DNA of 35,359 bases from Candidatus Sulfotelmatobacter sp. (GTDB taxonomy: Bacteria; Eisenbacteria; RBG-16-71-46). This document shows positions 10,675-16,387 of this stretch, one piece after another (within the stretch, counting starts at the first letter, position 1; every line of letters starts with the position of its first letter). The notes under the pieces were generated by a model, which worked only from the letters and a program-made list of their open reading frames with translations, was not told the origin of the DNA and did not search any database. The stretch lies in contig DATKAB010000186.1 in NCBI GenBank assembly GCA_035498555.1, forward strand, positions 1 through 35,359, written 5' to 3'. Position numbers and translations under genes: made by a program.

Positions 10675-10703
10675 TTGGCAGCGGATGATCGCGATGCTAG
10701 GTT
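10675..10703 (+). promoter_or_regulatory. Promoter of the GAF-GAF-PP2C gene, leaderless geometry
   Basis: TTGGCA (10675-10680), 17-bp spacer, TAGGTT (10698-10703), then 7 nt to ATG 10711. A small inverted repeat, GTGCA/TGCAC (10641-10653), lies 22 nt upstream of the -35. The rest of the 10500-10674 intergenic region shows no strong signal. Confidence 0.5.
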
Positions 10704-10710
10704 CCGCTTC

Positions 10711-12531
10711 ATGGTGGATCATCCGGTGGAATCCATGCCGCGCGACGAGGCCGAGCCCGCCTCCGACGAACTGCTGCACATCCTGACCGCCCACGGTCAG
10801 CGGAACGCGGAAGCGTTTCGCGCCGCGAGCAACCTCAACGAGCTGTTGAAGGCCGCGACCCGGCAGATCCGGCGGGTGGTGGACGCGGAACGGGTGCGGA
10901 TCTGGGTGGCGCGCCGGGGGGGCATGCGGCTCGAGACCCGCGAGTTCGGCCCGGGCGACGCGCCGCCGATCCACATCCGCATCCAGCGAGGCGAAGGGCT
11001 GGCGGGCTGGTGCCTCGAGCAGGGACAGCCCCTGAGGCTCGGCGCCGGCGACGCGCGCCCGACGTTGCGCGGCGTGGTGCCGGAGTTCCGCACCGCGCTG
11101 GTGGTGCCACTCTTTCGCCGCGGCGAGGCGTTCGGCGTGATCGAATGCCTCGACAAGCGCGGCGGCGAGGACTTCGTCGTCGCCGATCTCGAGCGGCTCG
11201 ACGTCGCCAGCGAGCAGGTGGCGTTCGCCCTCGACAACGCGCTGCTGTTCGAAGAGACCGAGCGCCGCGCGCTCGAGAAAGACGTGCTGCTGGAAGTCTC
11301 GCGCACGCTCTCGGCGCCGCTCGACCTCGACGAGGTGTTCGAGGCGATCTTCCGGGGCCTGCGCGAGGTGGTCTCGTTCGACGGGGCGGCCATCTATCTG
11401 GTCAACAAGACCACGCAGGCGCTCGAGCCGGTGGCCGCCATCGGATATCCGCAGGGCTCCGAAGAGGCGTTTCGACTGCAGGTCGGCCAGGGCATCGTCG
11501 GCTGGGTGGCGAAGACCGGGGAGCCGGTGATCGTGCCCGACGTGAAGCGCGACCGTCGTTACATCGCCGCTCGGCCCCAGACGCGCAGCGAGCTGGCGGC
11601 GCCGCTCATCCTCCAGGGGCGCACGCTGGGCGTCTTCAATCTCGAGCGCGATCTCGAGGATGCCTATCACGATGGACATCTCGAGTTGCTGATGGCGTTC
11701 GCGTCGCAGGCGGCGGTGGCGATCGAGCGCGCGCGCCTGACGCGCGAGCTGCTCGAGCGCCGTCGGCTCGAGAAGGAGCTGGCGATCGCGCGCGAGATCC
11801 AGCTCTCGTTCCTGCCGTCCGCCTCGCCGGTGCTCCAGGGCTACGACCTGGCGGGGGCGACGCGCCCGCACGACCAGGTGGGCGGCGACTACTACGATTT
11901 CATTCAGGTGTCGGATTCACGCCTCGGCCTCGCGATCGCCGACGTGTCGGGCAAGGGGATTCCCGCCGCGCTGCTGATGGCCGGCTTCCGCATGAGCCTG
12001 CTCGCCGAAATCCGCAACGAATTCGCGATCCGGGCGGTGATGCGCAAGGTCAACACCCTGCTCCACGAGAGCACCGAACGCGACCGATTCGTCACCTCGT
12101 TCTATGGCGTCCTCGATTTCCGGAACCACGTGCTGATCTTCTCCAATGCCGGTCACGATCCGCCCATCCTGATGCGCGCCGACGGCACCACCGAGCTGCT
12201 GGTCGAGGGCGGAGTGGCCCTGGGCGTGCTGCCCGACGCTCGCTACGACGAGCGTCCGGTCGCGCTGCGTCCCGGCGACGTGCTGGTGATGTACACCGAC
12301 GGAATCTCGGAAGCCGAATCCGCCAGCGGCGAGCAGTTCGGCACCCGGCGCCTCGAGGACGTGGTGCGCGCGCACGCCGATCGCTCCGCCGCGCAGATCC
12401 TGGAGCAGATCGAGAAGGCGGTGGTGGACTGGGCGGGCGAGCGCGGTCCGAGCGACGACCTCACGCTGGTGGTGCTGAAGGCGCGCCCGGCGCCCGAGGC
12501 GAGTCCGGCGGCGGCTCCATCGCGCCCGTGA
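10711..12531 (+). CDS. GAF-GAF-PP2C (RsbU/SpoIIE-type) phosphatase
   Basis: A 606-residue soluble regulator. Two GAF domains (about residues 35-180 and 200-345) are followed by a helical linker (LLERRRLEKELAIAREIQLS) typical of RsbU proteins. The PP2C/SpoIIE phosphatase domain (about 380-590) has GGDYYDF, DVSGKGIPAALLMAG, SNAGHDPP, MYTDGISEAES and SDDLTLVVL. The metal-binding acidic residues are present. Such enzymes dephosphorylate anti-sigma-factor antagonists in partner-switching pathways. The GAF domains would sense a small ligand or redox cue. No antagonist or anti-sigma gene is nearby. The start is uncertain: ATG 10711 fits the promoter, while ATG 10735 has a GGTGGA before it. The last 71 nt overlap the 3' end of the convergent peroxiredoxin gene. 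Confidence 0.88.
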   Translation: MVDHPVESMPRDEAEPASDELLHILTAHGQRNAEAFRAASNLNELLKAATRQIRRVVDAERVRIWVARRGGMRLETREFGPGDAPPIHIRIQRGEGLAGWCLEQGQPLRLGAGDARPTLRGVVPEFRTALVVPLFRRGEAFGVIECLDKRGGEDFVVADLERLDVASEQVAFALDNALLFEETERRALEKDVLLEVSRTLSAPLDLDEVFEAIFRGLREVVSFDGAAIYLVNKTTQALEPVAAIGYPQGSEEAFRLQVGQGIVGWVAKTGEPVIVPDVKRDRRYIAARPQTRSELAAPLILQGRTLGVFNLERDLEDAYHDGHLELLMAFASQAAVAIERARLTRELLERRRLEKELAIAREIQLSFLPSASPVLQGYDLAGATRPHDQVGGDYYDFIQVSDSRLGLAIADVSGKGIPAALLMAGFRMSLLAEIRNEFAIRAVMRKVNTLLHESTERDRFVTSFYGVLDFRNHVLIFSNAGHDPPILMRADGTTELLVEGGVALGVLPDARYDERPVALRPGDVLVMYTDGISEAESASGEQFGTRRLEDVVRAHADRSAAQILEQIEKAVVDWAGERGPSDDLTLVVLKARPAPEASPAAAPSRP

Positions 12532-13027
12532 GGCGCGCGGCTTCCAGCGTGCGCACGAATTTCAGCACTTCGCGGCCGTGCCGGCGCACGCCGACTCGCG
12601 TCCAGATCGCGCGCACCACTCCGTGGCGGTCGGCCAGGAACGTGGTGCGGCGAAACAGGTCGATCTTCCAGCCGCCAATTCCCAGTTCGCGCATGACATG
12701 GAACTCGCGCCCCGCGAGCCGGCGCTCGTCCGACAGCAGGGGATAGGGAAGCTGGAGTCGAGCGGCCCAGTCACGGCAGCTCTCGATCGAATCGGTGGTG
12801 ACGCCGGCGATCGTCGCGCCCGCGGCGCGGAAGTGTTCATGGAGCGCGCGAAACTCGCGCATCTCGATCACTCAGCCGGGAGTTCCATTGCGGAGATAGA
12901 AGAACAGCACCAGCGGGCCGAGTCCCACCCGCCCGCGCAGGCGGAACGGCCCACCGTCCGAGCTCGCCAGCTCCAGATCGGGCAGCTCGTGATCGAGCAG
13001 GTCCTCGGGTCGTGCGCGGCTCCCCAT
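12461..13027 (-). CDS. Peroxiredoxin (BCP/AhpC type), candidate selenoprotein with in-frame TGA
   Basis: A 188-residue peroxiredoxin if TGA at 12874-12872 is read as selenocysteine 52. Before it, the frame gives DHELPDLELASSDGGPFRLR, then VLFFYLRNGTPG. After it comes VIEMREFRALHEHFRAAGAT, then GVTTDS, LPYPLLSDE and FRRTTFLADRHGVVRAIW. This is a continuous BCP/AhpC fold. The TGA sits exactly where the family has the peroxidatic Cys of TPGCxxE, and the T (49) and R (FRRTTF) of the active site are kept. A hairpin suited to a SECIS follows. The start ATG 13027 lies 7 nt after a predicted -10; GTG 13036 and TTG 13063 are alternatives. Cys appears later (ESCRDW) and might resolve. Otherwise it is a pseudogene with a TGC-to-TGA change; no other disruption is seen. 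Confidence 0.7.
12842..12865 (-). promoter_or_regulatory. Candidate bacterial SECIS hairpin
   Basis: Directly after the TGA, minus-strand bases 12860-12855 (GCGCGA) pair with 12851-12846 (TCGCGC). This gives a 6-bp stem with a GUU loop, or a 5-bp stem with loop AGUUU. Below it GAG (12865-12863) pairs with CTC (12844-12842) across a small internal loop. The loop G is 18 nt after the TGA. The E. coli fdhF SECIS has its loop (AGGUCU) at 18-23 nt, and the key loop G and U are also adjacent here. GC-rich DNA forms hairpins easily, so the position and loop bases carry the weight. Confidence 0.5.
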
Positions 13028-13163: not shown

Positions 13164-13847
13164 TTGCATTTCGATCCGCAGCTGCTCTTGCTGCTGCCCG
13201 TCCTGGTATTCAGCGTCGTGGTGCACGAATGCGCCCACGGGCTGGTGGCTCTGTGGTGCGGTGACACGACCGCGCGAGATCGGGGCCGCCTGACACTCAT
13301 GCCGTTCGCCCACCTCGATCCGGTGGGATCGCTCCTGCTTCCCGGCCTGCTGGTGCTGGTGCGGGCGCCGTTCGTGTTCGGCTGGGCGAAGCCGGTTCCG
13401 GTGGACCACAGCCGGCTGCGCGATCTGCGCAACGATCCGGTCAAGGTGGCGCTGGCGGGGCCGGCCTCCAACTTTCTGCTGGCCTTGCTGTTCGCCGGTC
13501 TGGTTCGCGTGGCGCCAGAACCGGCTTCCGCCGGCCGCTCGGCCTGGGCGGCGTGGGCCTCGCCGCTGGCGACGATCGGGCTGGCGGGGGTCCTCTGGAA
13601 CGTCACGATCGGGCTCTTCAACCTGATTCCGATTCCGCCTCTCGACGGTTCGTGGGTGCTGATGCGATTCCTGAGACTCCGGCAGATCCTGCTGCTCCAG
13701 CAGTTCCGCCTCCTCGGCATCCTGTTGATCCTGGTGGCGCTCTCGTCGCCGCAAGTGTCGGAGGTCGTGCTGCGCAGGCCGGTGCTCGCCATCTCGAAGG
13801 CTCTGCTCGAGCTGTGGGGCGTCCCGGCGAGGGAGCTGACGCTGTGA
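13164..13847 (+). CDS. Site-2 protease family (M50) membrane metalloprotease
   Basis: A 227-residue membrane protease. TTG 13164 has GGAG 7 nt upstream. The zinc site HECAH is at residues 21-25 in the first membrane helix. The second conserved motif, NLIPIPPLDG (153-162), supplies the third ligand, Asp161. LAGPASNFLLALL (97-109) is also typical. At this length it is the minimal S2P core with no PDZ domain, as in the small family members often found just upstream of trpS and scpA. The substrate is not predictable. It opens a tightly packed operon: its stop overlaps the trpS start (GTGA). It is divergent from the peroxiredoxin gene. Confidence 0.92.
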   Translation: MHFDPQLLLLLPVLVFSVVVHECAHGLVALWCGDTTARDRGRLTLMPFAHLDPVGSLLLPGLLVLVRAPFVFGWAKPVPVDHSRLRDLRNDPVKVALAGPASNFLLALLFAGLVRVAPEPASAGRSAWAAWASPLATIGLAGVLWNVTIGLFNLIPIPPLDGSWVLMRFLRLRQILLLQQFRLLGILLILVALSSPQVSEVVLRRPVLAISKALLELWGVPARELTL

Positions 13848-14893
13848 GCCGCGGCCGGATCCTTTCAGGCATGCGGCCCACCGGACGACTGCATCTCGGC
13901 AATTTTGTCGGAGCGCTCGAGAACTGGGTGCGCCTGCAGGACGAGGGCTGGGAAAACTTCCACATGGTGGCCGACTGGCACATGCTCACCACCGGCTACG
14001 AAGACACCTCGCGGCTTCAGTCCGACATCCACGAGATGGTGGTGGACTGGCTCGCGGCCGGGATCGATCCCAAACGAAGCGTGATCTTCGTTCAATCGGC
14101 GGTGAAGGAGCATGCCGAGCTGCATCTGCTGTTCTCGATGCTGGTGAGCAAGGCGCGACTCGAGCGGATTCCCACGCTGAAGGAGCAGATTCGCGACCTG
14201 CATCTCGACGAACAGACGATTTCGTACGGACACCTCGGCTATTCGGTGCTGCAGGCCGCCGATATCCTCCTCTACCGCGCCACCCACGTGCCGGTGGGCG
14301 AGGACCAGGTGCCGCACGTCGAGCTGACTCGCGAGATCGCGCGGCGCTTCAACTTCGTGTACTGCCGCGATCGCGATCCGGTGTTTCCCGAACCCGAGCC
14401 GCAGCTCACGGCGTTTCCACGCCTGCGCGGGCTGGACGGGCAGCGCATGAGCAAGTCGGTGGGCAACACCATCCTGCTCGCCGACTCCCCGGACGCGATC
14501 GCCGCCCGGGTGAAGCAGGCCTACACCGATCCGAAGAAGATCCGCGCCAACGACCCGGGCCGCCCCGAAGCCGATCCCGCCGACGGCCATCCGGGCTGCG
14601 TGGTGTGGGAGTACCATCGCAAGTTCAACGCCGCGAACGCGCAGGACATCGCGCGGCGTTGCCGGGCGGGCGAGCTGGCGTGCGTGCCCGACAAGCGGGA
14701 CCTGAGCGGGATCCTGAGCGCCGCGCTCGCGCCGATTCGCGAGCGCCGCGCGAAGTACGAAGCCGACCCGGACCTGGTGCGCGAGATCATCGCCGACGGC
14801 AATGCGCGCGCGCATCGGGTCGCGGCCGAGACCATGTCGAAGGTGCGCGAGGCAATGAAGCTGAGCGCCCCGGTGGGAGAGCGGACCCGATGA
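13844..14893 (+). CDS. trpS: Tryptophanyl-tRNA synthetase
   Basis: A 349-residue class I synthetase that charges tRNA-Trp. GTG 13844 overlaps the protease stop by 4 nt. The start fits, because the family begins almost at once with SGMRPTGRLHLGNFVGALEN; the HIGH-equivalent is HLGN at 17-20. The KMSKS loop is RMSKS (201-205) in GLDGQRMSKSVGNT. FVQSAVKEHAELHLLFSMLV and YSVLQAADILLYRATHVPVG are characteristic. The length is normal for a bacterial TrpS. The stop overlaps the scpA start (ATGA). Confidence 0.97.
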   Translation: MSRGRILSGMRPTGRLHLGNFVGALENWVRLQDEGWENFHMVADWHMLTTGYEDTSRLQSDIHEMVVDWLAAGIDPKRSVIFVQSAVKEHAELHLLFSMLVSKARLERIPTLKEQIRDLHLDEQTISYGHLGYSVLQAADILLYRATHVPVGEDQVPHVELTREIARRFNFVYCRDRDPVFPEPEPQLTAFPRLRGLDGQRMSKSVGNTILLADSPDAIAARVKQAYTDPKKIRANDPGRPEADPADGHPGCVVWEYHRKFNAANAQDIARRCRAGELACVPDKRDLSGILSAALAPIRERRAKYEADPDLVREIIADGNARAHRVAAETMSKVREAMKLSAPVGERTR

Positions 14894-15681
14894 ACGAGTC
14901 GAACTCCGAAGCTCCCGCGCCCCGCAATACCGTGACCGTCAAGCTCGCCCGGTTCGAGGGGCCGCTCGATCTGCTGCTGCATCTCATCAAACGTGACGAG
15001 ATCGACATCTACGACATTCCGATCTCGCACATCACGCAGCAATACCTGGCCTACATCGAGCTGATGCGCGCGCTCGATCTCGACGTGGCCGGCGAGTTCC
15101 TGGTGATGGCGGCGACGCTGATGCGCATCAAGGCCAAGATGCTGCTGCCTCTGCCGGCGATGGGCGAGGAGGAAGAGGAAGGGGATCCGCGCGAGGAGCT
15201 GGTGCAGCGGCTGGTCGAGTACCGCCAGTACAAGGAGGCCGCCACCACCCTCAAGTCGCGCGAGGAGGAGCGGCGGCTCCTGTTCGAGCGGGGCATGGTG
15301 CCCGGCGACGACGAGATGGGGCCGCTGCCGCTGGCGCCGGCGTCGCTGTTCGACCTGCTCGATGCCTTGAACCGCGTGATGTCGCGCGTCCCCGAGCCGG
15401 TGGTGTACGAGGTCCAGGGCGAGATCTACGACGTCGAGGAGAAGATGTCGCTGATCGCGAGCCTGGTGGCCGAGCGCGGTCAGCTCTCGTTCACCGAGCT
15501 GCTGCTGCGCTGCCGGGTGCGCGCCGAGATGATCGTCACCTTCATGGCCCTGCTGGAACTCATCAAGCTCGGGCAGGTGCGTGTGGTGCAGGCCGAGAAC
15601 TTCGCCGACATCACGCTGCTGTCCCGGGCCGAGGAAGGAAGTGAGACCCATGCCACCGTCGAACCTGCTGGCGGCAACTGA
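14890..15681 (+). CDS. scpA: Segregation and condensation protein A
   Basis: A 263-residue kleisin subunit of the Smc-ScpAB condensin. ATG 14890 overlaps the trpS stop by 4 nt. The N-terminal Smc-binding region reads KLARFEGPLDLLLHLIKRDE, then IDIYDIPISHITQQYL and GEFLVMAATLMRIKAKMLLP, all strongly conserved in ScpA. An acidic middle (GEEEEEGDPREELVQRLVEY) precedes the C-terminal winged helix (RGQLSFTELLLRCRVRAEMI). It overlaps scpB by 32 nt. The encoded complex compacts and segregates the chromosome. Confidence 0.96.
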   Translation: MNESNSEAPAPRNTVTVKLARFEGPLDLLLHLIKRDEIDIYDIPISHITQQYLAYIELMRALDLDVAGEFLVMAATLMRIKAKMLLPLPAMGEEEEEGDPREELVQRLVEYRQYKEAATTLKSREEERRLLFERGMVPGDDEMGPLPLAPASLFDLLDALNRVMSRVPEPVVYEVQGEIYDVEEKMSLIASLVAERGQLSFTELLLRCRVRAEMIVTFMALLELIKLGQVRVVQAENFADITLLSRAEEGSETHATVEPAGGN

Positions 15682-16387
15682 AGCGCTGCTGTTCTCATCG
15701 GATCAGCCTCTCCCGCTGAGCCTGCTCTGCGAGTCGCTCGAGGCCGCGCCCGAAGAGGTGGCGGCGGCGCTCCAGAAGCTCGGCGAGGACTACGCGGCGC
15801 GTGATGCCGGCATCGAGCTGCGCGAGATCGCGGGCGGCCACATGCTGGTGACCACCGCCGCTCAGTCCGAGTGGGTCGGCCGGCTGCTGCGCGGCAAGAA
15901 GCGGATGCGGCTCTCGCGCGCCGCGCTCGAGACCATGGCGATCATCGCTTACAAGCAGCCGGTGACGAAAACCGAGGTCGAATCCATTCGCGGCGTGGAT
16001 TCGAGCGCCGTGCTCGGCACCCTGCTCGAGCGCACCCTGGTCACGATTCGCGGTCGCTCGAAGGTGGTCGGCCGGCCGCTGCTTTACGGCACGACCCAGG
16101 AATTCCTCGACTACTTCGGGCTCAAGGACCTCAGCGAGCTGCCGCGGCCCGAGGAGCTTCGGGCGCTGGTCGCGGCGCGCGAGCCCGAGCAGCTCGACAT
16201 GATGGAACTGGAGGTCGTCTCGCAGGTCGCCACCGATCTCGCCGCCGGAGAGGCCGCCGGGAGCGGCTTCCTGCGCCATGAAGTGGAGCCGCTCGAGGAG
16301 CTCGAGAACGAGTCCCCGAGCGCGGCGGAGAACGACGAGGCCGAGTCGGCGTCGCCTCCTCCGCTGGCCGCGGAACTCGAGCCCTGA
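15650..16387 (+). CDS. scpB: Segregation and condensation protein B
   Basis: A 245-residue ScpB, which dimerises and binds the ScpA kleisin. ATG 15650 is preceded by GAAGGAAGTGAG inside the scpA 3' end. Two winged-helix domains are visible: LLAATEALLFSSDQPLPLSL at the N-terminus, and SRAALETMAIIAYKQPVTKT, then RGVDSSAVLGTLLERTLV. The hallmark YGTTQEFLDYFGLKDLSELP follows. A tail of about 60 acidic residues extends beyond the usual end and is probably disordered. rluB starts 8 nt after the stop. Confidence 0.96.
   Translation: MPPSNLLAATEALLFSSDQPLPLSLLCESLEAAPEEVAAALQKLGEDYAARDAGIELREIAGGHMLVTTAAQSEWVGRLLRGKKRMRLSRAALETMAIIAYKQPVTKTEVESIRGVDSSAVLGTLLERTLVTIRGRSKVVGRPLLYGTTQEFLDYFGLKDLSELPRPEELRALVAAREPEQLDMMELEVVSQVATDLAAGEAAGSGFLRHEVEPLEELENESPSAAENDEAESASPPPLAAELEP

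Follow-up and report, generated by a model that had tools for sequence, protein, structure and literature searches.

The window analysed here, a 35,359-nucleotide stretch of DNA from a member of the phylum Eisenbacteria, carries on its minus strand, at positions 12461-13027, a gene for a predicted selenocysteine (Sec)-containing peroxiredoxin of the PrxQ/BCP type, hereafter prx. Translation from the ATG at 13027 gives a 188-residue frame whose sole interruption is the TGA at codon 52 (12872-12874, minus strand), flanked by FFYLRNGTPG and VIEMREF, and which ends at a second TGA (12463-12461), where UGA would serve as the normal stop. Residues past about 165 form a low-confidence tail that the orthologues do not have. 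The gene stands alone at its locus and is not part of an operon with a reductant gene. On one side, its 3′ end overlaps by about 70 bases (12461-12531) the end of a convergent gene for a GAF/SpoIIE-type protein phosphatase (10675-12531, plus strand); on the other, it is flanked by a divergent gene for an M50-family peptidase (13164-13847, plus strand) and by genes for a TrpRS/TyrRS-type synthetase, ScpA and ScpB (13553-16387, plus strand). A gene such as prx is one that automatic annotation would tend to truncate or omit.

With the TGA read through, residues 13-140 match the AhpC-TSA profile (Pfam: PF00578) with an E-value of 7e-26, and codon 52 aligns with the catalytic cysteine of solved BCP/PrxQ proteins (5enu at an E-value of 4e-34). 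Both the active-site Thr49 and the catalytic Arg126 are kept, so that prx combines the profile match, the T/S-x2-C/U motif and the catalytic arginine by which an AhpC-TSA peroxiredoxin is recognized. The original prediction, made from the letters alone, had described exactly this: a minus-strand peroxiredoxin at 13027-12461 broken only by a TGA at the position of the catalytic cysteine, with the active-site threonine and the later arginine intact, and each part of that description is borne out by the translation, the profile match and the alignment with solved structures. An AlphaFold2 model of the protein (mean pLDDT 87.5) finds its best PDB matches among BCP/PrxQ structures, with 5enu and 5iiz first, at 32-36% identity and a TM-score to the target of up to 0.91; structures of 1-Cys peroxiredoxins are also among the matches, and the closest solved structures by fold and sequence together are PrxQ/BCP.

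A family-wide search found close relatives of prx (48-55% identity) in six further genomes, from six different genera, and in each of them a TGA lies in frame at the identical codon, within TPGU, TPLU or SPGU. None of the seven genes has any other in-frame stop. A profile search of 47 genomes of the phylum, the same set as was searched for the class, returned the same seven orthologues and no cysteine-containing direct orthologue; the next matches, at E-values of about 1e-39, were the ordinary PrxQ proteins of these genomes, with the motif TPGC(T)xEAC. An alignment-based search of contigs gave five named orthologues, all assigned to Candidatus Eisenbacteria, and a contig search with the single prx protein as query gave nothing. 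The pairing of cysteine and Sec at column 52 that the original prediction had proposed to look for holds against the solved BCP/PrxQ proteins and against the cysteine paralogues of the same genomes, all of which are more distant PrxQ proteins. In all seven orthologues, then, the conserved site that carries the UGA lines up with the catalytic cysteine of homologues, as expected of a bacterial selenoprotein. Conservation extends to both sides of the TGA: downstream of it, residue identity is 44-56% across all pairs of the seven, with no sign of decay, which is the pattern expected of a translated region.

The position of the gene is fixed by its conserved neighbours. The order common to the seven genomes is SpoIIE-type phosphatase, prx, M50 peptidase, TrpRS-type synthetase, ScpA and ScpB, the last two being seen only where the contig extends far enough, and the M50 gene adjoins prx in six of the seven, G009 being the only carrier in which it was not detected. 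In three genomes without prx (G008, G014 and G016; loci L109, L103 and L107, respectively), the SpoIIE and M50 genes lie about 100 bases apart, with no remnant of prx between them. Since only UGA-form orthologues were found and the gap in the prx-free genomes is clean, the gene appears to be either present with its UGA or absent.

These observations bear directly on the simplest alternative, namely that prx is a cysteine peroxiredoxin gene broken by one base change, or by an assembly error, in the genome of the window only. A single substitution suffices to turn TGC or TGT into TGA, and the window is a single contig of a draft assembly; yet genomes of seven genera, at about 50% protein identity, share a TGA at this codon, the sequence is conserved on both sides of it, and the prx-free genomes show a clean, short SpoIIE-M50 gap rather than the remains of a decaying gene. 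We consider this alternative refuted by the TGA-bearing orthologues and assign it a negligible probability: conservation of the TGA in all seven rules out both a sequencing error and an isolated nonsense mutation. The original prediction had already rated such a mutation as the less likely course, and had named conservation of the TGA in relatives as a check and degradation of their downstream sequence as a ground for rejecting a Sec reading; the TGA is indeed conserved, and no such degradation is seen.

The genome of the window (3.8 Mb in 219 contigs, completeness 100) encodes the full set of genes expected of a bacterium that makes selenoproteins, selA, selB, selC and selD, a search for which had likewise been proposed. 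We found selA at an E-value of 4e-162, selB at 6e-101 over the GTPase part and with a C-terminal match, both within one 649-residue open reading frame, and selD at 8e-106, with a tRNA-Sec bearing a UCA anticodon adjoining selD. The selD gene (G000:C81, L019:3954-5030, minus strand) itself contains one in-frame TGA, located at the SelD active site (SCAGUASKVGPGDL), and its product is thus predicted to be a selenoprotein as well; in each of the six other prx carriers, the selD match likewise holds one in-frame TGA. Sec use is wide in the family: selA is above the cut-off in 17 of its 20 genomes, and tRNA-Sec matches of 63-75 bits were likewise obtained in 17 of the 20. In two prx carriers, G007 and G017, the search gave no convincing tRNA-Sec, and in G017 also no selA match. 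In both, the TGA-containing selD is found at the edge of a contig, 67 bases from it in G007 and truncated by it in G017. The tRNA-Sec of the other genomes sits at this place, and the completeness of G017 is 80%; because of this, we take these gaps as missing sequence.

The same evidence weighs on a second alternative, in which the UGA codes for a residue other than Sec, through a general change of the code or through readthrough by a near-cognate tRNA-Trp. Readthrough of UGA is possible in general, with nothing specific to suggest it here, but UGA is also the stop codon of prx itself and of several orthologues, the in-frame UGA occurs at the catalytic position only, a tryptophan as the peroxidatic residue should inactivate the enzyme, and the genome holds complete Sec machinery together with a Sec-type selD. 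A general reassignment of UGA is rejected on the grounds of its use as a stop in these genes and of the machinery present, and decoding as any amino acid other than Sec is, in our estimate, extremely improbable.

Ten nucleotides behind the UGA, at 12845-12861 of the minus strand and within the codons for M-R-E-F-R-A, lies a hairpin resembling a bacterial SECIS element (TGCGCGAGTTTCGCGCG; apical loop AGUUU). The seven sequences align without gaps from the UGA, with the hairpin at positions 14-30, and share a 6-bp stem, a 5-nt loop of the form AGUU[U/C] with G as its second base, and a UGA-to-loop spacing of 16 nt. All 42 stem pair cells (seven sequences by six pairs) hold standard pairs, and the column pair 15/29 occurs as GC, GU, AU, UA and CG. 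The covariation score is 0.437 as against 0.110 in shuffled alignments, a value matched by none of 500 shuffles, and the signal is lost when the partner is shifted by 1-3 columns; relatedness is retained in the shuffles, and four of the six stem pairs are invariant and uninformative, so that the covariation rests on two pairs. When codons were redrawn by local usage with the amino acids held fixed, the energy of the native hairpin was lower than that of these synonymous controls in each of the seven members (P 0.0005-0.022). The bare hairpin has an energy of -9.6 kcal/mol in the window and of -7.3 to -9.6 kcal/mol across the seven.

The published model of bacterial SECIS elements calls for a loop of 3-9 nt, a stem of 4-16 bp, a spacing of 16-37 nt, a G among the first two loop positions and an energy of at most -7.5 kcal/mol (PMC13188914). 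The hairpin fits this model in loop, stem and spacing, with some energies near the -7.5 kcal/mol limit and that of one member, L024, just missing it. Lower stems beneath the 6-bp hairpin show no conservation across the seven, and a scan of the window at Rfam gathering thresholds gave no match. Rfam families need not cover a SECIS hairpin that is short and specific to its gene. We regard the hairpin as a covarying, SECIS-like element that fits the model.

Taken together, these lines of evidence argue for prx being a PrxQ/BCP-like peroxiredoxin with Sec as its peroxidatic residue, inserted at UGA codon 52 via SelB and the hairpin, a reading to which we give a probability of about 0.96. The original prediction that the UGA is decoded as Sec is accordingly well supported by the seven TGA-bearing orthologues, the full Sec machinery and the covarying hairpin. 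As may be pictured from the machinery, the hairpin and the conservation, SelB and Sec-tRNA(Sec) would bind the hairpin behind the UGA and insert Sec at codon 52; by analogy with the chemistry of the family, U52, its selenolate kept in place by Thr49 and Arg126, would then attack H2O2 or an organic hydroperoxide and be converted to a selenenic acid. U52 and Arg126 are kept across the seven proteins, as is Thr49, with Ser in its place in one orthologue.

How the selenenic acid would be reduced is suggested by what the Sec proteins have in place of the resolving cysteine. A 2-Cys PrxQ carries this residue either at position +5 or in helix 3, and the Sec proteins have it at neither site: position +5 is an invariant arginine in all seven, and the helix-3 position (C84 of the Xanthomonas PrxQ) is occupied by Ala, Ser, Thr or Val. 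Besides the Sec, no cysteine at all is present in five of the seven. The prx of the window contains a cysteine, Cys84, which shows no conservation and is offset by about one helical turn from the site used in Xanthomonas. As both resolving positions are replaced and most members are without any cysteine, the selenenic acid would probably be reduced by an external thiol, be it thioredoxin, glutaredoxin or a low-molecular-weight thiol, in a '1-Sec' cycle, and prx is probably a '1-Sec' peroxiredoxin in need of an external reductant. Having no resolving cysteine, these proteins offer a natural test case for the recycling of a peroxidase with a lone Sec.

The same features could also speak for a protein in which Sec is inserted but which acts mainly as a thiol/selenol oxidoreductase, a sensor or a chaperone, given that the resolving cysteine is missing at both PrxQ positions, that +5 is an invariant arginine and that no reductant is encoded in an operon with prx. 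Against this, the T-x2-U motif, the catalytic arginine and the PrxQ fold are all retained, and 1-Cys peroxiredoxins, whose structures are among the matches of the model, are active peroxidases. We hold such a non-peroxidase role to be unlikely and favour that of a Sec peroxidase.

Sec-containing peroxiredoxins with the TxxU motif are, as the original prediction had noted for Sec peroxiredoxins of several bacteria, an established family. They were the second most abundant family (listed as COG1225) in the Sargasso Sea set (PMC1088965), twelve were counted in a survey of 2006 (PMC1794560), and they are tabulated with reference to the Eubacterium acidaminophilum enzyme in PMC13188914. The kind is therefore already known, and the Eisenbacteria prx is an added member. 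It shares with the TxxU proteins from E. acidaminophilum and marine metagenomes the Sec at the peroxidatic position of an AhpC-TSA (PF00578)/COG1225-type protein, but falls outside the NCBIfam PrxU family (NF040737; 18.4 and 27.3 bits against a cut-off of 270) and forms a clade of its own within one Eisenbacteria family. With cysteine PrxQ/BCP proteins, such as those of Xanthomonas campestris (5iiz) and Burkholderia (5enu), it has in common the fold, the T-x2-C/U motif, the catalytic arginine and, in six of the seven Sec proteins, the glycine preceding the peroxidatic residue; it differs from them in having Sec for cysteine and no resolving cysteine at either site, and does not reach the NCBIfam cut-offs for PrxQ equivalogs (62.6 of 260 bits for NF053650 and 55 of 140 for NF006960). 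Like 1-Cys peroxiredoxins of the Prx6 type, it has a single redox-active residue and no resolving cysteine, but it is nearer to PrxQ in sequence and fold, is too short for the C-terminal extension of Prx6, and carries Sec. In a phylogenetic tree, the Sec proteins make up one side of a branch (support 94/90), apart from the cysteine PrxQ proteins of the phylum. An ordinary cysteine-type PrxQ with a resolving cysteine (TPGCTKEAC) is also encoded in the genome of the window (G000:C78:929-1387; L047, L091).

What would set the Eisenbacteria proteins apart, judged from sequence comparison, is thus their separate Sec clade and their 1-Sec character. Tentatively, and with somewhat less than even confidence, we propose that they represent an obligate-Sec, resolving-cysteine-free '1-Sec' subfamily of PrxQ-like proteins, confined to one Eisenbacteria family, occurring in the Sec form or cleanly absent but never in a cysteine form, and with the hairpin embedded in the invariant REFR motif. 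A search of a literature collection that includes few subscription journals found no paper on Sec or selenoproteins in Eisenbacteria, and prx adds a well-supported selenoprotein to this phylum.

Formate dehydrogenase is the commonest bacterial selenoprotein. In the genome of the window, an FdhA match over the cut-off (G000:C130:17535-19505, L112) has no in-frame stop, so that formate dehydrogenase seems to be made without Sec here, and the Sec machinery may chiefly serve, among others, SelD and the defence against peroxides. Within the window itself, a tblastx scan for further conserved in-frame TGA codons gave, among the matches listed, pairs in antisense or other non-coding frames of conserved genes.
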